Origin: Caryophanales bacterium
GTDB taxonomy: Bacteria; Bacillota; Bacilli; Paenibacillales; CANHCR01
Length of the DNA stretch: 64,000 bases
Reading direction: 5' to 3'
Assembly: GCA_947459205.1 (NCBI GenBank)
Contig: CANHCR010000001.1
Coordinates: 1 to 64,000, forward strand
Made by a program: the position numbers and the translations under genes. The notes under the pieces were generated by a model. The model saw only the letters and a list, made by a program, of their open reading frames with translations, made no database searches and was not told where the DNA came from. Position 1 is the stretch's first letter, and every line of letters begins with the position of its first letter. Below, piece by piece: positions 12,932-30,616 of this stretch.

Positions 12932-13116
12932 TATCAAGCACATATAATAAGACGTAAGTCTTATTTTTTTTGCAACAAAAAGAAGGAAATATTTGACCGG
13001 CGTCGAATAACATTCAATGCATCTATGAAAGCGATTACATACCATACTTTGTACTTTTTTTCACAAACTATACTTACTTTTAAGAAATTTTGAATGAAAC
13101 AGGGAGGCAGCAAGAG

Positions 13117-13962
13117 ATGAGCGAGAAGTTACACATTGTTGTGTGCATCAAGCAGGTGCCGGATAGTCGTGAGATTCGGATTGATCCGAAGAACAATACG
13201 TTGATTCGGCAAGGTGTACCGAGTATTGTCAATTTTTATGATTTGCACGGGTTGGAAGAGGCACTGCGGATCAAGGATGAGCAAGGGGCGCGGATTACGG
13301 TGGTGACGATGGGACCGCCACCGGCCGAGAAGTCATTGAAGGAGTGTGTTTCGCTCGGTGCGGACGATGCGGTGCTTGTCACGGATCGCGGGTTTGCAGG
13401 AGCAGATACGCTAGCCACTTCTTATGTGCTTGGCAAGACGATTGAAAAAGTGGCCGAAACGTTCGGTAAGGTCGATATTGTGTTTTGCGGAAAACAGACG
13501 CTTGATGGCGATACCGGTCAGGTAGGTCCTGGTATTGCTTGTCGTCTTGATTTGGAGCAACTGACTTATGTGAGCAAGGTGCGTGCTGTCGATAAAGACT
13601 CCGGCAAAATTACGGTAGAGCGTCATTTGGAAGACGGTATTGAAGTGGTGCAAACGAGTATGCCGGTGTTGGTGACGGCGCTAAAGGAGTTAAACAAAGT
13701 GAGACGTGCACCGCTCCCAGGGATGTTGCGGGCTGCGCGCTTCAAGCCGGTTGTCTGGACGACCGCTGATTTTCCTGAATTGGACCGCAAGCAAATTGGT
13801 CTGAAAGGGTCGCCGACGATTGTCGCGAGAACGTGGGTTCCGGAAATTCGTAAGATCAATACGACTCGCGTCGAAGGTGAGTCGGAGCAAGAGATTGCGC
13901 AAAAAATCGTGGAGACGTTATGGCAAACGGATTTGCCTGAGCGTTTCGGCTGGAAATCTTAG
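13117..13962 (+). CDS. fixA: Electron transfer flavoprotein beta subunit, FixA type
   Basis: VVCIKQVPDSREIRIDP, CGKQTLDGDTGQVGPGIA. Confidence 0.9.
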   Translation: MSEKLHIVVCIKQVPDSREIRIDPKNNTLIRQGVPSIVNFYDLHGLEEALRIKDEQGARITVVTMGPPPAEKSLKECVSLGADDAVLVTDRGFAGADTLATSYVLGKTIEKVAETFGKVDIVFCGKQTLDGDTGQVGPGIACRLDLEQLTYVSKVRAVDKDSGKITVERHLEDGIEVVQTSMPVLVTALKELNKVRRAPLPGMLRAARFKPVVWTTADFPELDRKQIGLKGSPTIVARTWVPEIRKINTTRVEGESEQEIAQKIVETLWQTDLPERFGWKS

Positions 13963-13974
13963 GAGGTGACGACA

Positions 13975-15057
13975 ATGAGCGAAGAAACGAAAGAGCCTAA
14001 GGTGGCAGTGGAAGATGAAATGCCGGATTGGTCGGCGTATCGCGGTGTGTTGATTGTCGTTGAACAGCGTGACGGGGCAGCGAAGAAAGTGTCTTGGCAA
14101 TTGCTTGGTCAAGGTAAAAAACTGGCGGATAAACTTGAGGTGCCGTTGATGGCGCTAGTCATCGGTCACAACGTTGCACATTTGGCGCAGGAGGCTGGGT
14201 ATTACGGTGCGGATCAAGTGTATCTCTGCGATGCGGAGGAATTAAAGGATTATCGGACCCGTCCATATAGCCGTGTATGTTTGAAGTTTATTCATGAATA
14301 TAAACCGGAGATCGTGTTGTTCGGTGCGACGGCGACAGGGCGTGACTTGGCAGGAGCGATTGCGACGCATTTGCCGACGGGTCTGACCGCTGATACGACG
14401 GAACTGGATGTTGAGTTGCCACCGTCTCGCTTGTTGTTGGCGAGCCGTCCTGCTTTTTCGGAAAAAATGTTGGCGACGATTTTGTGTAAACAGTACCGTC
14501 CGCAAATGGCGACGGCACGTGCGGGTGTGTTTCAAGAATTGCCGCGCGACGAGTCTCGTAAAGTGGAGGCTGTGCGGATTGAGTTCAGCATGAGCGAGGA
14601 TGAAATTGCGACGAAAGTGTTGGAGTTCATCACCGAAACGAGTTCGATTAATTTGGAAGAGGCAGAAATTATTGTCGCCGGCGGACGTGGTTTGGGTGGT
14701 TCGGAAGCGTTCAAAATGTTGAAAGATTTGGCTGATGCTTTGGGCGGAGTGGTCGGTGCGTCGCGTGCGGCGGTTGATGCGGGCTGGATCAAACATGAGC
14801 ATCAAGTAGGTCAGACAGGATATACAGTTCGTCCGAAACTGTATTTTGCGATTGGCATCTCGGGTGCAGTGCAGCATACGGTGGGGATGGCGAATTCGGA
14901 GTTGATTGTGGCAATTAACCGTGATGCAGAGGCGCCGATTTTCAATTTTGCCCAATACGGGATTGTCGGTGATTTGTTCAAAATCGTTCCAGCCATTACT
15001 GAGCAGGTGAAGCAGAAGCGTTCGTTTGCTGGTATTGCGGTCGGATCAAATTCTTAA
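13975..15057 (+). CDS. fixB: Electron transfer flavoprotein alpha subunit, FixB type
   Basis: C-terminal FAD domain VVGASRAAVDAGWIKHEHQVGQTGYTVRPKLYFAIGISGAVQH. Confidence 0.92.
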   Translation: MSEETKEPKVAVEDEMPDWSAYRGVLIVVEQRDGAAKKVSWQLLGQGKKLADKLEVPLMALVIGHNVAHLAQEAGYYGADQVYLCDAEELKDYRTRPYSRVCLKFIHEYKPEIVLFGATATGRDLAGAIATHLPTGLTADTTELDVELPPSRLLLASRPAFSEKMLATILCKQYRPQMATARAGVFQELPRDESRKVEAVRIEFSMSEDEIATKVLEFITETSSINLEEAEIIVAGGRGLGGSEAFKMLKDLADALGGVVGASRAAVDAGWIKHEHQVGQTGYTVRPKLYFAIGISGAVQHTVGMANSELIVAINRDAEAPIFNFAQYGIVGDLFKIVPAITEQVKQKRSFAGIAVGSNS

Positions 15058-15065
15058 AGGGAGAG

Positions 15066-16382
15066 ATGGTTGTGGCAGAAAAGTTTGATGCGATCGTAGT
15101 TGGCGGCGGACCAGCCGGTGCGGCGGCGGCGTTAACGATGGCGCGCGCAGGTTTGTCGGTAGTGTTGATTGAGCGTGGAGAGTTTCCAGGTGCGAAAAAT
15201 ATATTCGGAGGCGTGTTGTATCGTCAGCAAATTTCTGACTTGGTTCCTGATTTCTGGTTGGAGAAAAATGCACCGGTCGAGCGCCATATTGTTGAACAGC
15301 GAGTTTGGATGATGGGTAAGGAATCGATGGTGACGTTCGGTCATCGCAATGAGGCGTATAAGGAGCCGTTTAACTGTTTCACCGGTTTACGTGTGAAGTT
15401 TGACCAATGGTTTGCCGACAAAGCGGTGCAAGCGGGAGCGATTCCGGTGTACTCGACAGTCGTTACCGAGGTGATTCGTGAAGGCAATAAAGTCGTCGGC
15501 GTTCGCACGGATCGCGATGATGGTGATTTGTATGCTGACGTGGTGGTCATTGCCGATGGCGTGAACTCGTTGCTCGGAAAAGCGATGGGCGTACACAAAG
15601 AGTGGGCGCCGGATGAGGTGTCGCTCGCGGTGAAAGAAGTCATTTCATTGCCTCGTGAGAAAATTGAAGATCGATTCAATCTCGAAGGTGACGAGGGCGT
15701 GACGATTGAGTTCATGGGTGAGACATCGCTCGGGATGGCGGGCATGGGTTTCCTTTACACCAATAAAGAGTCGATTTCACTCGGGATTGGCGTGATGGTC
15801 AATCATTTGCGTGATAAGCGTGTGAAGCCTTATGCTTTGCTCGAGGCGGTGAAACAGCATCCGATGATTCGCAAGTTGATTCAAGGCGGAGAGATGCAGG
15901 AGTATGCGGGCCATTTGATTCCAGAAGGTGGCTTCCATTCGATTCCGAAACTGTCGGGTGATGGATGGGTCGTGTGTGGCGATGCGGCACAGTTGGTCAA
16001 TTTCGTGCATCGAGAGGGTACGAATTTGGCGATGACGTCAGGCAAGTTGGCAGGCGAGGCTATTGTGGCGGCGCACGAGAAAGGCGACTACAGCGCAGCG
16101 AGTTTAAGGTTGTATGATGAGAAGATTAAGCAATCCTTTATTCATAAGGATTTGAAGAAGTACAAGGGGATGCATCAGTTTCTTAAGGAGCAAGATCCGG
16201 CGTTGTTGTTCGACAAGTTGCCGCGGGCGCTCAACGAAGCTGCGTACAATATGTTCTTGATTGATGGTAAGCCGAAGGCTGACAAGCAGAAGAAGGCGAT
16301 GCAAGTGGTCAAGGATGCGGCTGGTGGAACGGTGAATCTGATTAAATTAGGTTATAAAGGATGGAGGGCGATGAACGGATGA
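15066..16382 (+). CDS. fixC: FAD-dependent ETF-quinone oxidoreductase-like protein, FixC type
   Basis: N-terminal Rossmann VVGGGPAGAAAALTMARAGLSVVLIERG; GDAAQLVNFVHREGTNLAMTSGKLA. Confidence 0.92.
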   Translation: MVVAEKFDAIVVGGGPAGAAAALTMARAGLSVVLIERGEFPGAKNIFGGVLYRQQISDLVPDFWLEKNAPVERHIVEQRVWMMGKESMVTFGHRNEAYKEPFNCFTGLRVKFDQWFADKAVQAGAIPVYSTVVTEVIREGNKVVGVRTDRDDGDLYADVVVIADGVNSLLGKAMGVHKEWAPDEVSLAVKEVISLPREKIEDRFNLEGDEGVTIEFMGETSLGMAGMGFLYTNKESISLGIGVMVNHLRDKRVKPYALLEAVKQHPMIRKLIQGGEMQEYAGHLIPEGGFHSIPKLSGDGWVVCGDAAQLVNFVHREGTNLAMTSGKLAGEAIVAAHEKGDYSAASLRLYDEKIKQSFIHKDLKKYKGMHQFLKEQDPALLFDKLPRALNEAAYNMFLIDGKPKADKQKKAMQVVKDAAGGTVNLIKLGYKGWRAMNG

Positions 16383-16666
16383 GTGAGTGCAGTGTAACGG
16401 ACAAATTGTTTACGATTCGCTACAAGTGTGATGATCAGTCGCATCTGATTATTAAAGAGGCGGACACATGCGTCAAATGTACGACGAAAGATTGCAACTA
16501 TTTCTGCCCGTCAGACGTGTATGAGTGGGAGATGAAGCAGAAAATTACGACGGTTGCGTATGAAAACTGCATCGAGTGCGGTACGTGCCGGATCGCATGC
16601 CCGTCGGACAACATCCACTGGGTGTATCCGAAAGGTGGACATGGGATCACGTATAAGTTTGGTTGA
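16379..16666 (+). CDS. fixX: Ferredoxin-like protein, FixX type
   Basis: ENCIECGTCRIACP cysteine cluster; overlaps the fixC stop (ATGA). Confidence 0.92.
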   Translation: MSECSVTDKLFTIRYKCDDQSHLIIKEADTCVKCTTKDCNYFCPSDVYEWEMKQKITTVAYENCIECGTCRIACPSDNIHWVYPKGGHGITYKFG

Positions 16667-16705: not shown

Positions 16706-16736
16706 CGAGTCGACATAAATTGTCGGCTCTTTTTTT
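16706..16736 (+). terminator. Rho-independent terminator of fixABCX
   Basis: GAGTCGACATAAATTGTCGGCTCTTTTTTT. Confidence 0.8.
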
Positions 16737-16909: not shown

Positions 16910-16932
16910 TTATGTCATGTAAAATGACATAA
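16910..16932. promoter_or_regulatory. Inverted repeat upstream of nucleoside-type ABC operon, candidate operator
   Basis: TTATGTCA-TGTAAAA-TGACATAA immediately upstream of the RBS, within an AT-rich 200 bp leader. Confidence 0.5.
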
Positions 16933-16947
16933 AAGTAGGTGGGAGTT

Positions 16948-18489
16948 ATGGGGGAGACAGCATTGCAAAGGGAGACTTTACTTCGCGCCTCAAAATTAAT
17001 AAAACGGTTCGGCGATTTTACTGCGATTGATGAAGTCAATCTCGTTCTGCAGCGTGGCGAGATTCATGCGATTCTCGGTGAAAATGGTGCTGGCAAAAGT
17101 ACGCTGATGAAAATGCTCTACGGTGTGTATGTACCAGACGGAGGCGCATTGGAGATGCAAGGGAAGCCGGTCACGTTGCACCCGCCTAGTCGCGCGCGTT
17201 CCCAGGGAGTAGGGATGGTTTTTCAAGACTTCCGCCTCGTTCCTGCCTTGACTGTACTGGAGAACATTGCATTATCGATCGACCGTGCAGGGTTTTTGCT
17301 CAACAAAACAAAGTTGGCACAGCAAATTGCTGACATTTCTGAGCGCTACGGGATCGCAGTGAATCCGCATGCTTATGTGTGGGAGTTGGATCTCGGACAG
17401 CAACAACGAGTAGAAATTTTGAAGGCGCTCGTACAAGGTGAGACGAAGTTGATCATTTTTGATGAGCCGACGAGTGTATTGACACCGCATGAAGTGGACG
17501 CATTCCTGGCGATGTTGCAACGATTGCGAGCCGATGGATACGGGGTCCTACTAATAACACACAAGATCCGCGAAGTGCTCGCCTGTGCTGATACGGTGAC
17601 GGTATTACGGAATGGCAAGTTGGTGTACAGAACGTCGCGTGATCAAGAGATGACGGAAGAGATGTTGGTCTCACAAATGATTGGAAGCGCGGAGTTGCCG
17701 CGTGCACCGGAACGAAACCAAGTGGTGTTGGTTGATGAAGTGGCCGCGCTTGAAGTCGAGCAATTATCGATAAACAACGACCATGATGTAACGCTTTTGA
17801 CTGGATTGAATTTGACGATTCGCCCAGGTGAGTTAGTTGGCGTAGCGGGAATATCCGGTAATGGTCAAAAAGAACTGCTGGAAACGTTGTATGGCCTGCG
17901 CAAAGTGAAGTCGGGTTCGATTCGAGTGGCAGGTGCAGATGTGACGGCAGGTTCTGTGGCGACGCGTATGGAACGAGGCGTCGTTTATGTGACGGAAGAC
18001 CCGATCCATGAGTCGGTCGTGCCAGGACTGTCGATTTTGGAACATATGGTGCTGTCGGGCATGGAAATGTCGAAGAAAGGTCTTGATGTTGACTGGTCTG
18101 ATGTACGTCAACGGTTCGATTCGCTGGATGTCGTGCGCACGTTGCGAGTCGCCCAGGCTGATCGATTGGTGGAGACGTTATCTGGTGGCAATGTGCAACG
18201 CATGGTGTTAGCGCGTGCAATCACGCGTGTGCCGAAGTTGCTGCTGATCGCCTATCCGAGTCGCGGGCTTGATATTGCCACGACACGTGCGACGCAGAAG
18301 TTGTTGCTCGGATTGCGCGAGATGGGCACGGCAATTTTGCTCATCTCGGAGGATTTGACGGAACTTTTTGAAATCAGTGATCGCATTGTTGTGTTGAGCA
18401 ACCATTCGCTTTACGGTCCGTATGATCCGGCGGACACTGACCCTTACCAGATGGGACACATCATGCTGGAAGGGGATGAGCAAGCATGA
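16948..18489 (+). CDS. ABC transporter ATP-binding protein, nucleoside/BMP type (two ATPase domains)
   Basis: Walker A GENGAGKST, LDLGQQQRVEILKAL, second domain GVAGISGNGQKELLETLYGL and LSGGNVQRMVLARA. Confidence 0.9.
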   Translation: MGETALQRETLLRASKLIKRFGDFTAIDEVNLVLQRGEIHAILGENGAGKSTLMKMLYGVYVPDGGALEMQGKPVTLHPPSRARSQGVGMVFQDFRLVPALTVLENIALSIDRAGFLLNKTKLAQQIADISERYGIAVNPHAYVWELDLGQQQRVEILKALVQGETKLIIFDEPTSVLTPHEVDAFLAMLQRLRADGYGVLLITHKIREVLACADTVTVLRNGKLVYRTSRDQEMTEEMLVSQMIGSAELPRAPERNQVVLVDEVAALEVEQLSINNDHDVTLLTGLNLTIRPGELVGVAGISGNGQKELLETLYGLRKVKSGSIRVAGADVTAGSVATRMERGVVYVTEDPIHESVVPGLSILEHMVLSGMEMSKKGLDVDWSDVRQRFDSLDVVRTLRVAQADRLVETLSGGNVQRMVLARAITRVPKLLLIAYPSRGLDIATTRATQKLLLGLREMGTAILLISEDLTELFEISDRIVVLSNHSLYGPYDPADTDPYQMGHIMLEGDEQA

Positions 18490-19490
18490 GGCGCTTTTGG
18501 ATCGGCCTTGCTTTTGTGTTATCACCGTTCGTACTGTTTGCCTTGTTCTTGCTCTCGCAGGGTGCCAATCCGCTCGAGTCGTACCAAGCGATGCTGCGTT
18601 CGGCGTTCGGCGACTGGTACGGCATTGGTGAAGTGGCGATTAAGTCGACGCCGTTTTTGCTCACGGCGCTTGCAGTGGCGATTCCCGCGCGGGCGGGGTT
18701 GATCAACGTCGGCGGTGAAGGGCAACTGATGATTGGTGCGCTACTGACGACGTGGGTCGGAGTTTTCTATTTGCAAGGAGTACCTGCGTGGGTCGGTGTG
18801 CCGGTGCTAATCCTGATGGGTGCGTTAGGCGGAGCGATTTGGGGCATTGTCCCGGCTTTGCTTCGTCAGTACGCGCGGATGAATGAGACGATCACCACTT
18901 TGTTGCTCAATTACGTTGCATTTTTTACGGTTGGCTATTTCGTCCACGGACCGTTGAAAGATCCGGAATCGTTCAACTGGCCGTTCTCACCGAAGTTGGA
19001 TGAGGCGCTTCGTTTGCCGACGTTCGGTAGCACACGCGTTCATATTGGCTTTGTGCTTGCAATTGTCGCTGCGTTGGTTGTATGGTTCGTCATTTTCCGC
19101 ACGCGTGTCGGATTTCGTCTACGCGTCATCGGTGGCAATGCGATTGCCGCGCTTCAGGCGGGCATTAAGGTAAATCGCATGCAGCTATTGGCGATGGTGT
19201 TTGGCGGTGCGGTTGCAGGCATCGCGGGGATGATTGAAATTGCCGGTATCGAAGGTCATCTTCGTCCGATGACCGGATTCGGTTATGGGTACATCGGCTT
19301 TCTCGCCGCTTGGATGGCGTGGAATCATCCACTGTGGACGATTGGCACAGCGTTTCTGCTTGGCGCGATTAGTGTAGCCGGTAATGCGCTTGAGATGACA
19401 AGCGGCTTGCCTTCGTCTTCGGTCAGCATTTTGATGGCGTTCATTTTGCTGACGGTGTTGGCTGTGGGAAGGGGGAGTAAGGCATCATGA
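18486..19490 (+). CDS. ABC transporter permease, nucleoside/BMP type
   Basis: Polytopic membrane protein; IPARAGLINVGGEGQLMIGAL motif; overlaps ATPase gene. Confidence 0.88.
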   Translation: MRRFWIGLAFVLSPFVLFALFLLSQGANPLESYQAMLRSAFGDWYGIGEVAIKSTPFLLTALAVAIPARAGLINVGGEGQLMIGALLTTWVGVFYLQGVPAWVGVPVLILMGALGGAIWGIVPALLRQYARMNETITTLLLNYVAFFTVGYFVHGPLKDPESFNWPFSPKLDEALRLPTFGSTRVHIGFVLAIVAALVVWFVIFRTRVGFRLRVIGGNAIAALQAGIKVNRMQLLAMVFGGAVAGIAGMIEIAGIEGHLRPMTGFGYGYIGFLAAWMAWNHPLWTIGTAFLLGAISVAGNALEMTSGLPSSSVSILMAFILLTVLAVGRGSKAS

Positions 19491-20401
19491 TCGTTGAAAT
19501 TTTAACGGGTGCGATTCGTGCGGGAACGTCGGTGTTGTTCGCTTCGTTGGGAGAAGTGGTTGCGCAACGAGCAGGAGTTATCAATCTCGGCACGGAAGGG
19601 TCGATGTTGGGCGGTGCGTTCGTTGCTTTCGCCGTCACGTATCAGACGGGCAGTCCGTGGATCGGCTTGCTCGCCGGCGGTTTGGCCGGTTTGCTATTCG
19701 CCTTGATTCATGCGTTTCTTGTCATTCAACGTCGCGCCAATCAGTTGGCGGTCGGTCTGACGATTATCTTTTTGGCGCAAGGCTTGACGGCCTTCATGGG
19801 GCAGGACTACGTGGATAAGCAAATTAACGGTTTGAACCCGATTGCGATTCCAGTGCTATCCGACATTCCGTTCATTGGTCCGGTTTTTTTCAATCACGAC
19901 ATTTTGACTTATCTCGTGTTTTTGTTGGTGCCGCTTATCTGGTGGTTCCTTTTCTACTCGAAGCCTGGCGTGTTGCTACGCGCTACTGGTGAACGTGAAG
20001 AAGTTGTATTTTCCTTAGGAAAGTCGCCGACTTTGATCCGCTATTTGGCGGTCAGTTTCGGTGGATTGATGGCAGGCCTTGGCGGTGCGCAACTCTCCAT
20101 CGCTTTTACACATACTTGGGTGGAAAATATGACGCAGGGTAGAGGAATCATCGCCGTTGCGCTCGTCATTTTTGCCGCTTGGTTGCCAACTCGTGCAATG
20201 CTTGGCGCATACCTCTTCGGCGGTGCGCAGGCGCTGCAACTTGCTTTGCAGGGACGAGGTCTGGAAGTTTCACCGTTTTTGCTATTCATGCTTCCTTATT
20301 TACTCACTTTAGTGGTGCTGTTCATCGTTGAACGCCGCAAGGTTAGTTCAATGCCGGAGTCGCTCCGCAAAGTGTTCGAAGGGGAAAGGGGAGGTGGGTG
20401 A
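19487..20401 (+). CDS. ABC transporter permease, nucleoside/BMP type
   Basis: Polytopic; AQRAGVINLGTEGSMLGGAF motif; overlaps preceding gene. Confidence 0.88.
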   Translation: MIVEILTGAIRAGTSVLFASLGEVVAQRAGVINLGTEGSMLGGAFVAFAVTYQTGSPWIGLLAGGLAGLLFALIHAFLVIQRRANQLAVGLTIIFLAQGLTAFMGQDYVDKQINGLNPIAIPVLSDIPFIGPVFFNHDILTYLVFLLVPLIWWFLFYSKPGVLLRATGEREEVVFSLGKSPTLIRYLAVSFGGLMAGLGGAQLSIAFTHTWVENMTQGRGIIAVALVIFAAWLPTRAMLGAYLFGGAQALQLALQGRGLEVSPFLLFMLPYLLTLVVLFIVERRKVSSMPESLRKVFEGERGGG

Positions 20402-20473
20402 TTCACATAGACAATGAGTACGAAGTTGGATCGTCCGGCAGTAACCATTCACAATTCTAGGAGGAGAGAAACG

Positions 20474-21643
20474 ATGGGTACAGTAATGAAGTGGAGAAAA
20501 AGTTTGATTGTAGGGCTTGTCATGATGATGATGTTGAGCGTTTTGGCAGCATGTTCCGGCGGTGACGACACAGCGAAAGAGACAGAAACGCCAGATGAGA
20601 AGAAAGAAGCGGTGACTGGCCCTGGAACGGGTGGTAGTGCGATCGGCTTCTTGTTCGTCGGTGCAAAAGACGACTACGGTTACAACAAAGCGGCATACCT
20701 TGGTAGTGAAGGTGTCGAGGAGAATTTCCCTGATTTGAAAGTATTGCGCAAAGAGAACGTGCCAGAGACAGCTGAGGCAGAGCGCGTCATGGAAGAAATG
20801 ATTCGCAATGGTGCGAAAGTGATTTTCCCAACGTCGTATGGTCATCTTGATCCGGCGCTCAATGTAGCGAAACGTTATCCTGATGTTGCATTTTTCCACC
20901 AAGGCGGTTTGAAAACTTCTGAAAACTTGGGGACGTACTTCGGTAACATTTGGGAGACAGTGTATTTGTCTGGTGTGACAGCTGGTAAAATGACGAAATC
21001 AAACAAACTCGGCTACATCGTTTCGTTCCCGATTCCGCAAGTTTTGTTGAACATCAACGCGTTCACGATGGGCGCGAAGTCGGTCAATCCTGATATCAAG
21101 GTCAATGCGGTATTTACTGGAAGTTGGTGCGATCCTGGTTTGCAGGCGAGTGCGGCCAACAGTTTGCTTGATCAAGGTGTAGACGTATTGACGCAACATC
21201 AAGATTGTACGAAAACGATTATTGAGACGGCTGAGCGTCGCGGCGCGATGTCCGTCGGTTACCATGCGGATGCTTCGGAGTTGGCACCGAAAGGATGGTT
21301 GACGGGTGCGATTTGGAACTGGAAAGAATTGTACTCTGAAATGGCGCGTACAGCAGTAGAAGGTAAGTTTGTCGGCAGCAAATTCAATGCAAGTTACAGA
21401 ATTGGTATCGAAGAGGGTGCGGTTGAGTTGGCGCCGTTCGGTAGCAGCGTACCAGATGATGTGAAGGCGCTTGTCGAAGAAAAACGCCTTGCGATTCTTG
21501 ATGGAAGTCTTCATCCGTTTGCTGGTCCGGTCAAAGATCAATCGGGCGCTGTGAAAATTGAGGACGGCGTGAAACCGAATGTTGAGCAACTTGAGACGAC
21601 AGATTACCTCGTTGAAGGTGTCATCGGTAACATTCCGAAGTAA
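20474..21643 (+). CDS. BMP family substrate-binding lipoprotein
   Basis: Lipobox LSVLAACSGG; IGFLFVGAKDDYGYNKAAYLG and VAKRYPDVAFFHQGG as in the BMP/PnrA fold. Confidence 0.88.
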   Translation: MGTVMKWRKSLIVGLVMMMMLSVLAACSGGDDTAKETETPDEKKEAVTGPGTGGSAIGFLFVGAKDDYGYNKAAYLGSEGVEENFPDLKVLRKENVPETAEAERVMEEMIRNGAKVIFPTSYGHLDPALNVAKRYPDVAFFHQGGLKTSENLGTYFGNIWETVYLSGVTAGKMTKSNKLGYIVSFPIPQVLLNINAFTMGAKSVNPDIKVNAVFTGSWCDPGLQASAANSLLDQGVDVLTQHQDCTKTIIETAERRGAMSVGYHADASELAPKGWLTGAIWNWKELYSEMARTAVEGKFVGSKFNASYRIGIEEGAVELAPFGSSVPDDVKALVEEKRLAILDGSLHPFAGPVKDQSGAVKIEDGVKPNVEQLETTDYLVEGVIGNIPK

Positions 21644-21668
21644 TTTTTGAACTCATTTTTGAAACGAT

Positions 21669-21706
21669 TGAGGTGGTTTGATTGATTCGCATTGAACCAC
21701 CTCTTT
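21669..21706 (+). terminator. Hairpin between BMP lipoprotein and first amidohydrolase (terminator or attenuator)
   Basis: GAGGTGGTTTGATTGATTCGCATTGAACCACCTCTTT. Confidence 0.6.
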
Positions 21707-21729
21707 CTCATTAGAAAGGGGAATCACAT

Positions 21730-22416
21730 GTGCTAGTTCAGGCGACCCCATACAATTGGCCGTATGATGGGAAATTAGATCCGCAGAAAACTGCGCTGGT
21801 CATCATCGATATGCAGGTCGATTTTTGTGGAAGAGGCGGTTATGTTGACCGCATGGGATATGATATATCGTTAACGGCGCGCGCAATTGAACCGATTCGG
21901 ACGTTGTTGCATAAAGTTCGCACGATACCAGGATTTACGGTTATACACACGCGTGAAGGGCATCGTCCAGATTTGACGGATTTGCCAGCCAATAAGCGTT
22001 GGCGTAGTCTTCAAATCGGTGCAGAAATTGGCTCTTCGGGGCCTTGCGGACGTATTCTTGTGCGTGGCGAGGCAGGTTGGGACATTATTGAGGAGTTGGC
22101 GCCGCTACCTGATGAAATCATTATCGATAAGCCGGGTAAAGGCAGTTTTTATGCCACTGATTTAGACATGATTTTACGTCAAAAAGGAATTACACATTTG
22201 ATTTTGACGGGCATCACGACGGATGTATGTGTACATACAACGATGCGTGAAGCGAATGACCGCGGTTACGAATGTCTCATCTTAGAAGACTGTACCGGTG
22301 CAACTGATTATGGAAATCATCTTGCCGCTTTGAAAATGGTAACGATGCAAGGCGGCGTGTTTGGCAGCGTATCGAATTCACAATCAGTAATCGAGGCGCT
22401 CGATACATTAACATAA
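21730..22416 (+). CDS. Isochorismatase-superfamily cysteine hydrolase, biuret-hydrolase-like
   Basis: Triad context IIDMQVDFCGRGGYVDRMGYD / DKPGKGSF / TGITTDVCVHTTMREANDRGYECL. Confidence 0.85.
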   Translation: MLVQATPYNWPYDGKLDPQKTALVIIDMQVDFCGRGGYVDRMGYDISLTARAIEPIRTLLHKVRTIPGFTVIHTREGHRPDLTDLPANKRWRSLQIGAEIGSSGPCGRILVRGEAGWDIIEELAPLPDEIIIDKPGKGSFYATDLDMILRQKGITHLILTGITTDVCVHTTMREANDRGYECLILEDCTGATDYGNHLAALKMVTMQGGVFGSVSNSQSVIEALDTLT

Positions 22417-22431
22417 GCGGAGGAACTGAAG

Positions 22432-22854
22432 ATGAAATTAGCTGAAATTACGACTGTAAAAGAGGGACAATCGATAACATGGACGCAAATTCCCGAACAT
22501 ATTCAACTGTTTCATCGTGAAATTGTTGATGCGGCTGAGGCCGATGCACTCGGCGTGCGCGTTAGTTCCGTGCTTTGGGAAAAAATCGAAGTGGGCGGTC
22601 AAGTGTTGCCGCATTACCACAATGTTGCGGAAGTCATTCACATCACCGTTGGCAAAGTGAAACTGCTCTGCAATGGTGAATGGAAATCGTATCAAGCGGG
22701 CGATACGTTTCATGTGCCAGCGGGCGTAGTTCATTCTGTGAAAAATGACGATTCAGCACCGACCGAACAAATCAGCATCTTTTTACCGGCAAATGCAGAA
22801 ATTCCGAGCAATCAATTTTTTCAAACGATTCTTGTAGAAAACAAATATGAGTAG
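22432..22854 (+). CDS. Cupin domain protein
   Basis: LPHYHNVAEVIHITVGKVKLLCNGEWKSYQAGDTFHVPAGVVHSV cupin motifs. Confidence 0.88.
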   Translation: MKLAEITTVKEGQSITWTQIPEHIQLFHREIVDAAEADALGVRVSSVLWEKIEVGGQVLPHYHNVAEVIHITVGKVKLLCNGEWKSYQAGDTFHVPAGVVHSVKNDDSAPTEQISIFLPANAEIPSNQFFQTILVENKYE

Positions 22855-23518
22855 TTTCGTCTCTGCACAACCTTTTGATTTTTCTTTTGACCTAAGTAGT
22901 ACGGCGCTGCTGGTCATCGACATGCAGAATGATTTTTGCACCGCAGGTGGTTTTGGAGAAAAACTTGGCAATGATATATCGCCTGCACGCGCAATCATCC
23001 CAACGATTCAAAATGTATTGCAGCATTGTCGACGATTAGGAATAACAGTCATTCATACGCGCGAAGGACATCTGCCTGATTTGTCTGATTGTCCGGCAAG
23101 CAAACTGCAACGAAGCCAGCGGCAAGGAGCAGGAATCGGAGATTTGGGTCCGATGGGACGGATCTTGACTCGCGGTGAACTTGGTCACGCGATTGTAGAT
23201 GAATTGCAACCGATATCGGGAGAATATGTGATTGACAAACCTGGCAAAGGAGCCTTCTATGATACTGAGTTGCAAACTCTGCTTACGCAATTAGGCATTC
23301 GCTCGCTAATTGTGACTGGTGTCACTACCCACGTATGTGTGCATACGACGGTGCGTGAAGCAAATGATCGAGGCTACGAGTGTTTGGTGCTCGAGGACGC
23401 AACCGCCGCATTTGACATTCGAGACCACGAAGCGGCTATTCGCATGATTCATCAGCAAGGAGCAATCTTTGGTTGGGTGTCGACGGTCGAACAATTGCTT
23501 TCGGCAAAATTTGAATAA
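22847..23518 (+). CDS. Second isochorismatase-superfamily cysteine hydrolase (paralog)
   Basis: VIDMQNDFCTAGGF / DKPGKGAFYDTEL / VTGVTTHVCVHTTVREANDRGYECLVLEDATAA. Confidence 0.87.
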   Translation: MSSFVSAQPFDFSFDLSSTALLVIDMQNDFCTAGGFGEKLGNDISPARAIIPTIQNVLQHCRRLGITVIHTREGHLPDLSDCPASKLQRSQRQGAGIGDLGPMGRILTRGELGHAIVDELQPISGEYVIDKPGKGAFYDTELQTLLTQLGIRSLIVTGVTTHVCVHTTVREANDRGYECLVLEDATAAFDIRDHEAAIRMIHQQGAIFGWVSTVEQLLSAKFE

Positions 23519-23577
23519 AATGATATACTACTCTATATGGTGTGCTATTTTCAGCATCGGTGAGAGGAGGGGCAAAC

Positions 23578-25293
23578 ATGGCTGACATGAGACAATCTGT
23601 TGTTACTTGTCAGGAGTTGTTTGCTCTTCCGCTGCTTGCCGATGCTGTTTTACTTGCAGGCAAAGAAGGCTTATATCGTCAAGTGAGTCGCGTCAATGTG
23701 ATGGAAGTGCCTGATGTCACGGATTGGGTGCAAAGCGGCGAGTTTTTAATGACAACTGGTTATCCGCTACGTGACAATCCGCACACATTTGTTGAGTTGA
23801 TTCGGCAATTGTCTGCGAAAGGGGTCGTTGCTCTCGGAATCAAAACCAAACGATTCGTCGACATCATTCCGCCTGAAGTGATCGCTGTTGCAGACGCATT
23901 GAAATTCCCGCTCATCGAACTTCCGCCACAAACAGTCTTCTCAGAAATCATCCATGAAGTGATGGAACTCGTGTTAGCTCACGAGATGTTTCAGTTGACG
24001 ATTTTACAGGAGCGGATGCAGGCCATCACCAGCGTCTTGATGGATGGTGGTGGCATCATAGAAATGTTGCAAGAATTGGAACGCTTGTTCAACCACCACG
24101 TATTGTTTTTAGACACTCACGCCGACGTCTTGATAACGGATAAGACAGCATCAGATTTGCTAAAGACGATTGAGGCAAATCGTATATGGAGTCAAAACCT
24201 CATTTCTGAGATGGACCGAGTTGCTGCTGCGGATTCGTTCGGTGAATTACAAATTCAACAAAACGACCGGGCATACGCAGGCTATTTTTGCAAAATTCAA
24301 ATGTCATACGGAAGACGTTGTTATCTGCTTTTAATTAGTCGTGGTCCGCAACTATTAGATATCGATAAATTAACAATAGATCGTATTAAACCGATTGTTG
24401 TTTTGGAATTGATGAACTTAGAGGCGCGGCGTTCTGTGGAACATAAATATTTGGACCAGTTTTTGCAGGATTGGTTATTCGCTAGACTGGATGGTGACGC
24501 CGAATGGAAAATGCGTGCCAAACTATGCGGTTTTGAATATGAAGAATCGAATTTGTATGCTGTTGCTGTGCTTCGTAACCGGCAAAACGAGTCAAATCAG
24601 ATGCCGATTCCGTCAACAGTGATTGAACGATTTCAGGCATTACGTGAGCATAGTGATGGATTGATGTTTCAAACGTTGTTTTTAGATGAACAGATTGTGT
24701 GGTTTATCGGTATTCCTCAAGAGATTGCAGAGAAGGGCAACCAAAATCTACGTAAACGGATAGAGAAGCAGATTCATTCAGAAATTTTTCAGCATTACTT
24801 CGTTCAATTGGGAAAAATCGTGCGCACGAACGAGGTTTTTGCAAGTTATAGTGAAGCATTGAAAATTCAACAAATCAGTTTGCAATCCGGACTGAATCAC
24901 AACTTGTTGACTTACGATGATTTGGGTGTGTATCCACTTCTAACAACATTACCCGATTGTGATGAGTTACAACATTTTCGCAAAAAATTTATCGAACCTC
25001 TATTGATGTTCGAGAAGACACATCACCTCAATATCATAGAAACATTGGATACGTATTTTCAGTGCAATCAAAATATGAAATCGACTGCCGAGAAGTTGTT
25101 TACGCATTACAATACGATTGTCTACCGAATGGATCGAATCAAGAACTTGCTTGGATTCGATCTAGATCAGGCAGATGTTCGTCTGCAACTTCATTTAGCG
25201 TTAAAACTTTATCATTTAGATCTCAGTAGAAAACGGGCAAGCATGCCCGTTTGGCGGCCAACTACTGGTAGAAGTGAAAGTAGCAACGCCTAA
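23578..25293 (+). CDS. PucR family transcriptional regulator (C-terminal ~20 aa encoded by a repeat)
   Basis: N-terminal PucR domain VMEVPDVTDWVQSGEFLMTTGYPLRD; C-terminal HTH TLDTYFQCNQNMKSTAEKLFTHYNTIVYRMDRIKNLLG. Confidence 0.9.
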   Translation: MADMRQSVVTCQELFALPLLADAVLLAGKEGLYRQVSRVNVMEVPDVTDWVQSGEFLMTTGYPLRDNPHTFVELIRQLSAKGVVALGIKTKRFVDIIPPEVIAVADALKFPLIELPPQTVFSEIIHEVMELVLAHEMFQLTILQERMQAITSVLMDGGGIIEMLQELERLFNHHVLFLDTHADVLITDKTASDLLKTIEANRIWSQNLISEMDRVAAADSFGELQIQQNDRAYAGYFCKIQMSYGRRCYLLLISRGPQLLDIDKLTIDRIKPIVVLELMNLEARRSVEHKYLDQFLQDWLFARLDGDAEWKMRAKLCGFEYEESNLYAVAVLRNRQNESNQMPIPSTVIERFQALREHSDGLMFQTLFLDEQIVWFIGIPQEIAEKGNQNLRKRIEKQIHSEIFQHYFVQLGKIVRTNEVFASYSEALKIQQISLQSGLNHNLLTYDDLGVYPLLTTLPDCDELQHFRKKFIEPLLMFEKTHHLNIIETLDTYFQCNQNMKSTAEKLFTHYNTIVYRMDRIKNLLGFDLDQADVRLQLHLALKLYHLDLSRKRASMPVWRPTTGRSESSNA

Positions 25294-25523: not shown

Positions 25524-26234
25524 GTGACACAACCTTTTCGCCAAGTTGCTACGAACACCATATTGAAGATGTCGAATATCGAGTTAACGTATCGTATACA
25601 TGATTTGTTGCTGACAACAGCAACTTCATACGATTGTTTAAGTAATGCCATTTGGAATGGCGGTATAACGAGAGCGAAACACTTTCTTAATTGGAAAGTA
25701 CCGCTCGATTTTGCCGACGAGAATCCGGAAAATGCTTGTAAAACGCATGCAGTTTCGTCTGGGTTAGATACGCGTCAAACAGTTGTTTTGATGACTGCAG
25801 CCAAACTGACGCACGCATCCGTTCATCAGACAAAACAATCTAGTTTTTCTATCTTATGTTTGGCGACGGCTGGCACGAGCAATGCAGTCCGAGCCGGAAA
25901 AGCAAGAAAAACTTATCCTTCCTACGTAGCAGGTACAGTGAATGTCACTGTCCTCATCAATGCTAAAATGACATCCGCAGCCATCGCCAATGCTCTGATT
26001 ACAAGTACAGAAGCGAAAGCAGCAGCATTGATAGATGCCGGAATTCCCGATCAATCGAATGGTTTGCTTGCAACAGGTACGACAACGGATGCAGTGGTGA
26101 TTGGGTGCAGTCAATCAAATGATTGGCCACATATACATCGCTATGCTGGAACGGCCTCTGAATTGGGGCACGCAATCGAAATGCTTGTATACCAATCGGT
26201 GCTGGAGTCGGTCACAACTCAGCACGATGATTGA
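25524..26234 (+). CDS. cbiZ: Adenosylcobinamide amidohydrolase
   Basis: CbiZ-like LLATGTTTDAVVIG, GTVNVTVLINAKMTSAAIANALITSTEAKAAAL; adjacent to cobalamin salvage genes. Confidence 0.85.
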   Translation: MTQPFRQVATNTILKMSNIELTYRIHDLLLTTATSYDCLSNAIWNGGITRAKHFLNWKVPLDFADENPENACKTHAVSSGLDTRQTVVLMTAAKLTHASVHQTKQSSFSILCLATAGTSNAVRAGKARKTYPSYVAGTVNVTVLINAKMTSAAIANALITSTEAKAAALIDAGIPDQSNGLLATGTTTDAVVIGCSQSNDWPHIHRYAGTASELGHAIEMLVYQSVLESVTTQHDD

Positions 26235-26293
26235 TCGATACTCAACATTTTGTGGTCTTTGTCTTACGAAAACACAATATTTTGAAATTTTAC

Positions 26294-26322
26294 TTGTCAG
26301 AAGATCGGTTTTTGATTATAAT
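26294..26322 (+). promoter_or_regulatory. SigA-type promoter upstream of cobalamin riboswitch
   Basis: TTGTCA-17 bp-TATAAT. Confidence 0.75.
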
Positions 26323-26361
26323 TCTCGCAAGAGCAACGAATCGAAAATTAAATATCCTTAC

Positions 26362-26531
26362 ATTGTCAGGTGCCTGTGTTTTTTTGAACCAGGTTAAAAG
26401 GGAAGCCGGTGTGAATCCGGCACGGTCCCGCCACTGTAAATTGGGGACGACCTCGAAGTGCCACTGTTCATACGAACGGGAAGGCGAGGAAGTTATCAAA
26501 CCCATAAGTCAGGAGACCTGCCTGTACAATC
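26362..26531 (+). ncRNA. Cobalamin (B12) riboswitch
   Basis: AAAAGGGAAGCCGGTGTGAATCCGGCACGGTCCCGCCACTGTAA and B12 box CCCATAAGTCAGGAGACCTGCC. Confidence 0.96.
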
Positions 26532-26604
26532 GAGCTCAAGGAATCCTTCGCGGAAAAGGATCGAGATTTGTTAGGTGAAGTCTATTTGTCTACCTGATTA
26601 CTCG

Positions 26605-26637
26605 CCCCCATCCAATATAGGATGGGGGTTTCGTTTT
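26605..26637 (+). terminator. Terminator hairpin of riboswitch expression platform
   Basis: CCCCCATCCAATATAGGATGGGGGTTTCGTTTTT. Confidence 0.85.
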
Positions 26638-26701
26638 TGCTTGCACGAAGGGGATGTTTAAATACGGTACGTTCTCAACCAAGAAAAGAGGAGAACATAA
26701 T

Positions 26702-27667
26702 ATGAAGAAGTTTCTAGTTAGTTCTTTGATGGTGGTCATGGTATTTACTCTCATAGGCTGTGGCTCTGGTAGTGAGACTGTCACTGAAATTGAAACTGAA
26801 ACTGAAAAGCAAGTTGTCGAACAAGAAAATCAGTCGAATGTGACAAAATTCCCGCTTACAGTTAAAGATGCATCCGGTGTCGATGTCGTTTTGGAAAAAG
26901 AACCGCAGCGTATTGTGTCGATTGCGCCCGCCGAGACAGAAGTGTTGTTCGCTTTAGGTTTAGGTGATCGAGTGGTCGGCGTAACGGACTGGTGTGATTA
27001 TCCTGCTGAAGCGAAAACGAAATCCAAAATCGGTGATATGAATTCGAATTTGGAAGCGATTCTGGCACTGAACCCAGATTTAATTATCGGTGGTTATACA
27101 CTTAACACCGAAGCGATAAAAAAGTTGAGAGAGTTAAAGCAAACAGTCTTTACTGTAGAACCGAAAACAATCGAACAAGTTAAGGAACGTATTGTCCAGG
27201 TCGGCTTGATTACGAATCGCCAAACGGAAGCCGAACAATTAGTAGAAAGCATGAATACTAAAATCGACACTGTAGCGAACGCAGTATCTAAACTTAGTGA
27301 AAACGAAAAGAAAAAGATTTACCTAGAATTCGATGCCATGTGGACGGTTGGACAAGGTGAATTTGGTCATGATTTAATCGGAATGGCTGGTGCTATCAAC
27401 GTTGCCAAGGACAAACAGGGTTGGCTCGAAGTGAATGATGAATTTGTCATCAAGCAAAATCCTGATGTCATTGTGTACGCTAGCTACACGAAAGATAATG
27501 CCGTTGCCGAAGTCATTAAAAAACGAAACGGATGGGCCGCAATCACTGCGGTGAAAGATAATCAAGTGCTTGGCATTGATGCGAATCTGTTAAGTCGTCC
27601 AGGTCCACGGATTGCGGACGGTCTTCATGAATTAGCAAAAGGAGTTTACCCAGAGTTGGTGAAATAA
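26702..27667 (+). CDS. btuF: Corrinoid ABC transporter substrate-binding lipoprotein
   Basis: Lipobox TLIGCGSG; RIVSIAPAETEVLFALGLGDRVVGVTDWCDYP; downstream of B12 riboswitch. Confidence 0.9.
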   Translation: MKKFLVSSLMVVMVFTLIGCGSGSETVTEIETETEKQVVEQENQSNVTKFPLTVKDASGVDVVLEKEPQRIVSIAPAETEVLFALGLGDRVVGVTDWCDYPAEAKTKSKIGDMNSNLEAILALNPDLIIGGYTLNTEAIKKLRELKQTVFTVEPKTIEQVKERIVQVGLITNRQTEAEQLVESMNTKIDTVANAVSKLSENEKKKIYLEFDAMWTVGQGEFGHDLIGMAGAINVAKDKQGWLEVNDEFVIKQNPDVIVYASYTKDNAVAEVIKKRNGWAAITAVKDNQVLGIDANLLSRPGPRIADGLHELAKGVYPELVK

Positions 27668-28704
27668 TGGTAAAACGTCTGTTCTTTTGGACGACTTTCG
27701 GTTTAGTCCTGCTTGTCGTATCAGTGATTGTCAGTTTGTCCGTCGGTTCTGCTCACATCCCGCTTCATGAAACGTGGCGAGTAATCTTGCAGCAAGTTCC
27801 GTGGATTGGTCAGATGATTGAAACAGATTGGACGGAATCGACGGAGCAAATTCTTCTACAAGTCAGAGCGCCGCGCGTACTTCTTGCATTGCTGGTTGGA
27901 GCGGCGTTGGCGTTAGCAGGCACAGGCTTCCAAGGGGTACTCCGCAATCCTCTGGCAGAGCCGTACACGCTTGGTGTTGCCTCCGGTTCGGCAGTCGGAG
28001 CATTAGTCGTGATTTTGCTCGGTCTACAATATGCGTGGTCTGGTAGTTGGACGATTCCGCTTGCTGCATTTTTGACGGGGCTACTCACGTTGTGGCTAGT
28101 GATTATACTTTCTCGTCAACAATCGAAATTGAAAATCGAAACGTTGATTCTTGCAGGTGTAGTGATTCAAGCTTTCTTTGGTTCCGTTGTTTCATTTCTC
28201 GTTTCCATCTCGCGAAATTCAATGAATGAAATGATTTTTTGGTTGATGGGCAGTCTTTCGCTTAAAGGGTGGAGTTATTCCTTCATCATTCTGCCGTACC
28301 TGGTCTTCGGATTTATCATTTTGCTATTGATGGGCAGAGAACTAAATCTCTTCTCGTTGGGTGAACGCCAAGCGATGCATCTTGGTGTAAATATTGAACG
28401 AACCAAACTAGTTGTGTTAATCATATGCACATTGCTGACCGCAGCTGCCGTCTCGGTTGCAGGTATCATTAGCTTTGTCGGCTTGGTGATTCCACACATT
28501 TTACGGTTGATGGTCGGTTCTGATTATCGAATACTGATTCCTTTGTCCGTAATTTTTGGAGCTATTTATGTGCTGTGGGCAGATACCTTGTCCCGAATGC
28601 TGCTCGATCCACAAGTAATTCCGCTTGGTGTGATTACATCGATACTGGGCGCGCCGTTTTTTGCCTGGTTGTTGATTCAAAATAAACGTGGCGCTGCATC
28701 CTGA
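27667..28704 (+). CDS. btuC: Corrinoid ABC transporter permease (FecCD family)
   Basis: VRAPRVLLALLVGAALALAGTGFQGVLRNPLAEPYTLGVASG. Confidence 0.92.
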   Translation: MVKRLFFWTTFGLVLLVVSVIVSLSVGSAHIPLHETWRVILQQVPWIGQMIETDWTESTEQILLQVRAPRVLLALLVGAALALAGTGFQGVLRNPLAEPYTLGVASGSAVGALVVILLGLQYAWSGSWTIPLAAFLTGLLTLWLVIILSRQQSKLKIETLILAGVVIQAFFGSVVSFLVSISRNSMNEMIFWLMGSLSLKGWSYSFIILPYLVFGFIILLLMGRELNLFSLGERQAMHLGVNIERTKLVVLIICTLLTAAAVSVAGIISFVGLVIPHILRLMVGSDYRILIPLSVIFGAIYVLWADTLSRMLLDPQVIPLGVITSILGAPFFAWLLIQNKRGAAS

Positions 28705-28723
28705 TTGAATGAGGCGATGATTG

Positions 28724-29515
28724 ATGAACGTTAATGTACAAGATTTGCGAAAATTGTATGGTAATCAGGCAGTCTTGGACGGCGTACAGTTTGCTGTTCG
28801 TCCCGGCGAGTGTTTCGGTATTATCGGTCCAAACGGAAGCGGTAAGTCGACATTGTTGAAAATGCTTTCTGGTGTGGAGCGAGCCGATTCAGGGCATGTT
28901 CACTTAAACGGTGTTGATATTGCCAAGATGAAAACAAAGCAAATTGCTCGGAAAATTGCTGTGTTGCTACAAGAAGCATTATCGCCCGTAGATTATAGCG
29001 TACGTGACGTTATTGAGATGGGACGATACCCTCATCAGAACTGGTGGGGGATTGATGACACAGAATGCACTTCCTTGATTGCAGACATCTCATATAAGCT
29101 ATGCTTGGAACATCTTTTGCATCGTGCGGTCTCGACACTGAGTGGCGGAGAGCGACAACGAGTAGCGATTGCGAAAGCGATGGCACAACAACCAGATCTG
29201 TTATTGCTTGATGAACCGACCACTTTTTTGGACATCGGGTACCAAATGCAGATGATGGATATGGTGCGTAATTGGCAAGTTGAACAAGGAATTACGGTGA
29301 TTACAGTACTCCACGATTTAAATCTTGCTGCGCAATACTGTGACCGTATACTAATCCTGAATCAAGGAAAACAAATCGCATTAGGAACGCCTGCAGAAGT
29401 CATTAGTGATCACCTGATTGAGTCGGTATACGGAACGAGACCGATTATCTTAGAACACCCAGTCAGTGCACTCCCGCAAATTTTACTTCAACCGGGGGCG
29501 CTCCCATTACAATAA
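28724..29515 (+). CDS. btuD: Corrinoid ABC transporter ATPase
   Basis: Walker A GPNGSGKST, signature LSGGERQRVAIAKAMAQ, LLLDEPTTFLD. Confidence 0.92.
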   Translation: MNVNVQDLRKLYGNQAVLDGVQFAVRPGECFGIIGPNGSGKSTLLKMLSGVERADSGHVHLNGVDIAKMKTKQIARKIAVLLQEALSPVDYSVRDVIEMGRYPHQNWWGIDDTECTSLIADISYKLCLEHLLHRAVSTLSGGERQRVAIAKAMAQQPDLLLLDEPTTFLDIGYQMQMMDMVRNWQVEQGITVITVLHDLNLAAQYCDRILILNQGKQIALGTPAEVISDHLIESVYGTRPIILEHPVSALPQILLQPGALPLQ

Positions 29516-29533
29516 AGCAAATGGAGTTTGAGT

Positions 29534-30616
29534 ATGATTGATGTTCGTTCGATAGCAAGTGAAATTCAGCCGCTTGAAGCAGAATGGTTGCAAAGGGCAC
29601 AGAACCATTTGGATCAATTAACGAAACCGCCTGGGAGCTTAGGCAAATTAGAACATTTAGCTAAGCAGTTAGTTGCTATTCGAAAAGAAATGACACCGCG
29701 ATTGGAAAAAAAAGCAGTCATTGTCATGGCTGCTGACCATGGTGTTTGCGATGAAGGAATTAGTCAATATCCGCAGGCGGTAACAGGGCAAATGATCTTG
29801 AATTTTCTGCAAGGTGGTGCCGCTGTCAATGTGCTGGCTCGCCAAGCGGGTGCTGATGTTTTTTGCTATGATATCGGTTCGAAAGCAGACATTCCTAACG
29901 AACAATTGCATTCAAACAAAATAAGAAATGGTACGGGCAATATTGCGATAGAACCAGCGATGTCAGAACAAGAGGCGGAACTTGCCATCATGCGGGGCGT
30001 TTCTCTTGTTCATCGATTGGTTGCAGACGGTTATACATGTTTTGCTACAGGCGAAATGGGCATTGGCAATACGACAGTTAGTTCAGCTTTGCTTTGTGTG
30101 TTGCTTGAAAAAACGCCGAGTGAAATCGTTGGATTTGGTACAGGTATTGATGCTACAAAAAAACTTCATAAAGAATTGGTTGTACAACGAGCTATACATC
30201 GATTTGAATCAGCCAAAATAAAACGGCATGAAGAGAGAATTCCTTATGCTCTGGAGTTGCTTGCTCAACTTGGTGGTTTAGAAATTGCTGGTCTCGTAGG
30301 CGTAATTCTTGGTTGTGCTTATCATCGATGCCCGATTGTGATTGATGGTTTTATTTCAACAACAGCTGCCGTCGTTGCCGCGCACATAGCTCCGAATGCT
30401 GTGCAATACATGGTGCCTTCACATTTGTCACACGAAGCTGGACATCGCCACGCACTCGCTCATTTAGAGTTACAACCAATGCTTCATATGGACATGCGAC
30501 TGGGTGAGGGAACGGGCGCAGTGCTTTGTTTTCCTTTGATTGATGTGGCCATAGCCATTATCTGTGAGATGGCAACATTTGAAAGTGCAGGCGTTTCTGG
30601 TGAGTTGGATTCTTAA
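29534..30616 (+). CDS. cobT: Nicotinate-nucleotide--dimethylbenzimidazole phosphoribosyltransferase
   Basis: LTKPPGSLGKLEHLA, AADHGVCDEGISQYPQAVTGQM, GEMGIGNTT. Confidence 0.95.
   Translation: MIDVRSIASEIQPLEAEWLQRAQNHLDQLTKPPGSLGKLEHLAKQLVAIRKEMTPRLEKKAVIVMAADHGVCDEGISQYPQAVTGQMILNFLQGGAAVNVLARQAGADVFCYDIGSKADIPNEQLHSNKIRNGTGNIAIEPAMSEQEAELAIMRGVSLVHRLVADGYTCFATGEMGIGNTTVSSALLCVLLEKTPSEIVGFGTGIDATKKLHKELVVQRAIHRFESAKIKRHEERIPYALELLAQLGGLEIAGLVGVILGCAYHRCPIVIDGFISTTAAVVAAHIAPNAVQYMVPSHLSHEAGHRHALAHLELQPMLHMDMRLGEGTGAVLCFPLIDVAIAIICEMATFESAGVSGELDS

Follow-up and report, generated by a model that had tools for sequence, protein, structure and literature searches.

A Paenibacillales operon predicted to scavenge nitrogen from biuret and probably triuret, with a sister type of triuret hydrolase

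We analysed a window of 64,000 nucleotides from a Caryophanales bacterium (Bacillota; Paenibacillales; assembly GCA_947459205.1, contig CANHCR010000001.1, positions 1 to 64,000), in which positions 16,910 to 25,293 hold an eight-gene operon for an ATP-binding cassette (ABC) transporter with a BMP-type binding lipoprotein, two cysteine hydrolases, a small cupin and a PucR-family regulator. Our reading, to which we give a probability of roughly two in three, is that with this operon a soil-type relative of Bacillus scavenges nitrogen from polyureides, namely biuret and probably triuret. The transporter would import biuret, triuret or both, and hydrolase B (HydB) would then hydrolyse a terminal amide of triuret to give carboxybiuret and ammonia. 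Carboxybiuret would lose CO2 to yield biuret, either spontaneously or with the aid of the cupin, and hydrolase A (HydA) would convert biuret to allophanate and ammonia. Finally, allophanate would decarboxylate to urea, a substrate for the chromosomal urease. PucR would control expression of the operon, the signal being a ureide or the nitrogen state. Biuret and triuret both occur as contaminants in urea fertiliser, and uric acid oxidation also yields triuret. The operon comprises the following genes:

16948..18489, + strand: ABC transporter ATPase, NupA/RbsA-like, with two ABC domains (open reading frame list, Pfam ABC_tran)
18486..19490, + strand: ABC permease 1 (Pfam BPD_transp_2)
19487..20401, + strand: ABC permease 2 (Pfam BPD_transp_2)
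20414..21643, + strand: BMP-type binding lipoprotein (Pfam Bmp; nearest solved relative AtzT, 6pi5)
21730..22416, + strand: hydrolase A, predicted biuret hydrolase BiuH (Pfam Isochorismatase, BiuH equivalog model, residues, tree)
22432..22854, + strand: Cupin_2 protein with His-x-His, Glu and His metal motifs (Pfam Cupin_2)
22847..23518, + strand: hydrolase B (HydB), TrtA-sister cysteine hydrolase of the His160 type (Pfam Isochorismatase, tree, residues)
23542..25293, + strand: PucR-family regulator (Pfam PucR and HTH_30)

A preliminary description of this DNA had proposed uptake and stepwise hydrolysis of a nitrogen compound, which we judge to be right, by a system that it called uncharacterised. 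The latter term does not hold, because triuret/biuret clusters with BMP-type transporters have already been published: trtA-trtB-biuH-atzF clusters with bmpA-nupABC occur in ammonia oxidisers (PMC12625717). These have in common with the window a TrtA-type enzyme, BiuH and a BMP-type ABC transporter, whereas the window operon lacks atzF, carries a Cupin_2 gene between the hydrolases and a PucR gene, and has its urease elsewhere in the genome. What is new is, on our best reading, a well-conserved Bacillota version of the triuret/biuret pathway with its own TrtA-sister enzyme and cupin, which places a whole unit for ureide uptake and degradation in relatives of spore-formers.

The eight same-strand, closely packed genes first described are all present as open reading frames on the + strand, with Pfam families that agree, and the Asp, Lys and Cys motifs quoted for both hydrolases were found. 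The gene series ATPase-permease-permease-BMP-(formamidase)-BiuH-cupin-HydB-PucR is shared by other members of the order, among them Paenibacillus and Cohnella, although some have lost single genes, and the proteins there are about 60-80% identical to those of the window (35-41% for PucR), so the arrangement is not a product of chance. Conservation of the neighbourhood was likewise confirmed in 10 of 201 genomes of the same order (the window's included, from four families), which encode a BMP protein of at least 65% identity with BiuH and/or HydB alongside. At two such loci (L009 and L069) an AtzF gene (37-40% identity) lies directly 5' of the ATPase. A formamidase-type nitrilase adjoins biuH at L004:7754, L006:6957, L013:8139, L107:11275 and L085:7943; it matches the NF009803 equivalog in L085, and the Paenibacillaceae and Rhizobium proteins are 72-76% identical.

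Judged from its sequence, hydrolase A is the biuret hydrolase BiuH, predicted to turn biuret into allophanate. Its score against the NCBIfam BiuH equivalog NF050097 is 413.8 bits (cut-off 370), and because this is above a curated cut-off the substrate of the enzyme is less obscure than was first supposed. The top PDB matches were Rhizobium leguminosarum BiuH structures (E ~1e-109). Alongside the Asp/Lys/Cys triad, the protein has Tyr35, Tyr41, Ser134, Asp160 and Thr187 (TrtA numbering), all of them BiuH consensus residues as listed by Tassoulas et al. (PMC7948467), and in the tree it falls among other Paenibacillaceae BiuH-type rows. The early impression that hydrolase A resembles biuret hydrolase is therefore borne out by the equivalog score, the consensus residues and the tree. 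It shares the triad and specificity residues of BiuH from R. leguminosarum 3841 (PDB 6AZO) and is 72% identical to a plasmid copy from R. leguminosarum. The two differ in that the host here belongs to another phylum and the partner enzyme is a TrtA relative of the His160 type, not the Glu160 type. RutB, nicotinamidase and N-carbamoylsarcosine amidase were set aside for both hydrolases as much weaker matches in structure and profile searches. In three Paenibacillus operons (L006:8395-9291, L013:9115-9915 and L069:9179-9916) the BiuH copy reads TTDVG for TTDVC, losing the catalytic Cys, and another BiuH that looks intact is encoded a few kb upstream; the Cys-less copy is an apparent retained pseudoenzyme.

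Hydrolase B is a probable triuret hydrolase. Its top PDB match is TrtA (6xix), the triuret hydrolase of Herbaspirillum sp. BH-1 (PDB 6XIX/6XJE), which is also encoded beside biuH and shares the first-shell residues of HydB. The residues D24, F29, F35, N41, E72, K129, K132, A134, V157, T158, C162, Q202 and I205 (TrtA numbering) are retained, such that every residue reported to contact triuret is kept, including the catalytic triad, with the exception of the water-binding position 160. At five specificity positions HydB has either the TrtA residue or a third residue, and never that of BiuH. In the tree, the HydB clade (22 rows, support 100/98) stands beside the TrtA clade (56 rows, 100/98), with HydB outside the latter. 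Triuret is favoured as the substrate because HydB fills the place of TrtA beside BiuH and the BMP transporter, a combination of BiuH, TrtA-type enzyme and BMP transporter that we see in Rhizobium (L085) and other Proteobacteria.

The cupin is a candidate carboxybiuret decarboxylase, which we consider its most economical role, with allophanate decarboxylase as an alternative. Its His61, His63, Glu67 and His101 form a complete two-motif metal site, invariant in twelve homologues, and its model is a confident small-cupin fold (predicted local distance difference test score, pLDDT, of 87.9). Homologues are encoded either between BiuH and HydB or right after AtzD, the latter in BiuH/AtzF clusters with no HydB nearby (L082 and L083). 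Carboxybiuret is the product of both AtzD (cyanuric acid hydrolase) and TrtA (PMC7948467), and the proposed role follows from this shared position, since the homologues adjoin loci for enzymes that would both make the compound. In the literature we found no account of a cupin acting on carboxybiuret, nor any paper on formylbiuret/5-azacytosine. At the Rhizobium locus L085 a different small cupin (Cupin_7) adjoins TrtA, and elsewhere stand-alone AH_C (allophanate hydrolase C-terminal domain) proteins are encoded near TrtA-type genes, as if several small proteins were able to fill one step.

Allophanate probably ends as urea and is split by urease. The host genome is 99.45% complete; AtzF allophanate hydrolase was not found in it, while control genomes gave positives, and its sole amidase-signature protein is GatA-like and of GatA length. 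AllG was not found in the host genome either, so AllFGH was rejected as the final step in this organism. The urease set comprises UreA and UreB next to UreC (the last split over two contig ends), together with UreF, UreG and UreD. The statement in the preliminary description that no urease is adjacent thus stands for the locus and fails genome-wide, as a urease cluster is present elsewhere. An ending in urea is suggested because the host lacks AtzF and AllG yet has a complete urease, and is plausible because allophanate decarboxylates to urea in water; this loss of CO2 is spontaneous, as is that of carboxybiuret, which gives biuret (PMC6219798). Most relatives with the operon have AtzF elsewhere in the genome. 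The operon thereby offers candidates for carboxybiuret decarboxylation and for an AtzF-free fate of allophanate.

Some observations count against the proposed route. HydB has His in place of the second-shell Glu160 of TrtA, and Phe in place of its Tyr187. Glu160 and Tyr187 are present in 56/56 TrtA-type rows, and His160 in 22/22 HydB-type rows (Phe187 in 18 of these 22). In TrtA, E160 holds a water that touches triuret and connects to Gln202; E160D leaves 50% activity and Y187T less than 10% (PMC7948467), so the specificity of HydB may have moved. The fork that unites the His160 and TrtA clades is supported at only 92/67. For the cupin, Foldseek and sequence searches gave generic relatives only (DddK first, then RemF, TM1459 and quercetin dioxygenase); it has no characterised close homologue, and its best PDB matches are quercetin dioxygenase and DddK. 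Lastly, 14 genomes with BiuH divide into seven with AtzF and urease (one AtzF counted though split in two), four with urease only and three with AtzF only, and the lack of any genome without both (0/14) does not exceed chance expectation (p = 0.51).

The His160 clade may thus hold either triuret hydrolases with a rebuilt second shell or enzymes for another substrate. In the latter case, HydB would act on a different ureide, for instance oxaluramide, formylurea or some other fragment of purine oxidation, and biuret would be only one of two related substrates served by the operon. We consider this unlikely, albeit deserving of real weight, given that His160 and Phe187 replace an invariant Glu and Tyr of TrtA in a separate, well-supported clade, and that most members outside Paenibacillaceae adjoin xanthine-type permeases and AllFGH/carbamate kinase, a system known for oxalurate (PMC11326118). 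The reported triuret contacts are nonetheless all conserved save position 160, HydB fills the position of TrtA beside BiuH in Paenibacillaceae, and Glu160 TrtA-type enzymes adjoin AllFGHK as well (E. coli plasmid L089, L070 and L045), so this context cannot separate the clades.

We found twelve His160 members outside BiuH loci, their sources including Clostridia, Erysipelotrichaceae, spirochaetes, Mollicutes-like lineages, Paraliobacillus and a megaplasmid of Peptoclostridium. Every one of them adjoins xanthine-permease-like genes, usually one per side, the permeases being named after the L088 record as Pfam gave no family. Most of these loci have a PucR gene and, if the contig extends far enough, AllF, AllG, AllH or carbamate kinase, the counterparts of E. 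coli AllFGH oxamic transcarbamylase and AllK. The arrangement at L088:8547-19150, and at L005, L010, L011, L014, L019, L020 and L021, is PucR, permease, His160-type hydrolase, permease, AllH/AllF/AllG and carbamate kinase. Neither AtzF nor urease scored above cut-off in any of six examined genomes with anaerobe-type His160 loci (0/6). Allophanate is the one-carbon-shorter analogue of oxalurate, which AllFGH splits to give carbamoyl phosphate.

The published activity of AllFGH on oxalurate (PMC11326118) fits a route in which dedicated xanthine-type permeases would supply the His160 hydrolase, followed by AllFGH transcarbamylase and carbamate kinase, with allophanate as a natural AllFGH substrate. 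As a tentative wider proposal, rather less probable than its opposite, the His160 clade would be a functionally distinct family, serving ATP-yielding ureide fermentation in anaerobes and, in Paenibacillaceae, having joined a BiuH/BMP operon that includes a new metal-dependent cupin decarboxylase and relies on urease, instead of AtzF, for the last step. Since the clade occurs in anaerobes of gut and sediment, ureide-driven ATP formation via carbamoyl phosphate becomes a testable question. On the E. coli plasmid pCh101 (L089:8992-17170), and similarly at L070, a TrtA-type hydrolase gene is followed by allH, fdrA/allF, allG and carbamate kinase; further 3' in L089 are genes for a stand-alone AH_C domain protein, a cytosine permease and a LysR regulator. 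Many plasmid records from Klebsiella and Escherichia (90 from the latter) contain matches to the L089 hydrolase, and several of these records are from poultry, the waste of which is rich in uric acid.

The transporter was assessed by comparing its binding protein with AtzT, from the atrazine locus of Pseudomonas sp. ADP. The nearest structures are AtzT (6PI5; ~42% identity) and an adenine-bound Brucella homologue, and the former binds guanine (dissociation constant, KD, of 110 nM) via Glu165 (PMC6834077). The window protein belongs to the same BMP family and keeps the stacking Tyr45 and Trp194 as well as Ser97, whereas Glu165 is changed to Gln, Asn218 to His and Asn220 to Asp. Within the same-order sample, Gln165 with His218 is present in 12/12 biuH-linked BMP proteins and 0/19 others, and Glu165 in 18/18 of the AtzT type; kinship among the proteins compared means that the Fisher value for this association overstates their independence. 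Outside the order, biuH-linked BMP proteins mostly have Gln165, with three Thr and one Val. In the tree, a purine-type AtzT clade (20 rows, 100/100) leaves out every biuH-linked BMP protein, including that of the window. The pocket residues and tree position are most simply read as those of a dedicated non-purine importer of the ureide type, for which the operon supplies a pocket signature.

The preliminary description had pointed out that BMP/NupABC-type transporters import nucleosides, and these data disfavour a transporter of the purine/nucleoside type. The associated explanation, in which an AtzT-like importer brings in a purine or other nucleobase and the hydrolases act on a breakdown product of the imported purine or triazine, is improbable. 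It draws on the guanine- and adenine-binding relatives, on the PucR regulator and on related clusters that contain AtzD (L085, L082 and L083) and formamidase, but has to contend with the altered pocket, with the position outside the purine clade and with an operon that has no ring-opening enzyme; an AtzD-type enzyme was not detected in the host genome, a weak result since control genomes were likewise silent. At the Lachnospiraceae locus L017:4739-10665, a BMP transporter with Val165 in its binding protein is accompanied by genes for three hydrolases of the isochorismatase type and a cupin, and by two amidohydrolase-like genes.

That both hydrolases are redundant biuret hydrolases from a gene duplication, with no role for triuret, is a very improbable account which the 56% identity between them might suggest, and which we rejected since HydB scores 297 bits against the BiuH equivalog model (73 below the cut-off), has none of the BiuH specificity residues and lies with TrtA in a part of the tree separate from BiuH, each part spanning several phyla. 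Of the two biuret-hydrolase-like enzymes originally described, then, the label is kept for hydrolase A and replaced for hydrolase B, which by PDB match, residues and tree is a TrtA sister type.

With nitrogen scavenging from biuret and probably triuret as the preferred function, we turn to the limits of the operon. Adjacent genes within it either overlap, by 4-8 bases, or have no more than 86 bases between them. The ATPase gene has alternative starts, GTG at 16939 (from the open reading frame tool) and ATG at 16948, the latter preceded by GGTGGGAG. Directly 5' of the operon, window positions 13090-16666 hold a fixABCX-like electron transfer flavoprotein cluster, and after FixX come a terminator-like hairpin and then an AT-rich gap of 270 bases with a promoter-like site. 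On the 3' side of PucR, positions 25524-30616 hold a cobamide cluster of CbiZ adenosylcobinamide amidohydrolase, a BtuFCD-like transporter and a CobT-like gene; profile searches confirmed CbiZ and the binding protein, and the rest were named from sequence only. The operon is well delimited because of the cluster, hairpin and gap upstream and the cobamide cluster downstream. Two hairpins were noted:

16707..16729, + strand: terminator-like hairpin between the fixABCX-type cluster and the operon (sequence scan)
21670..21703, + strand: 13-bp hairpin with a weak T-run, between the BMP gene and hydrolase A (consensus scan only)

The second of these may be an attenuator or an mRNA-stabilising hairpin, and could set expression of the binding protein apart from that of the enzymes.

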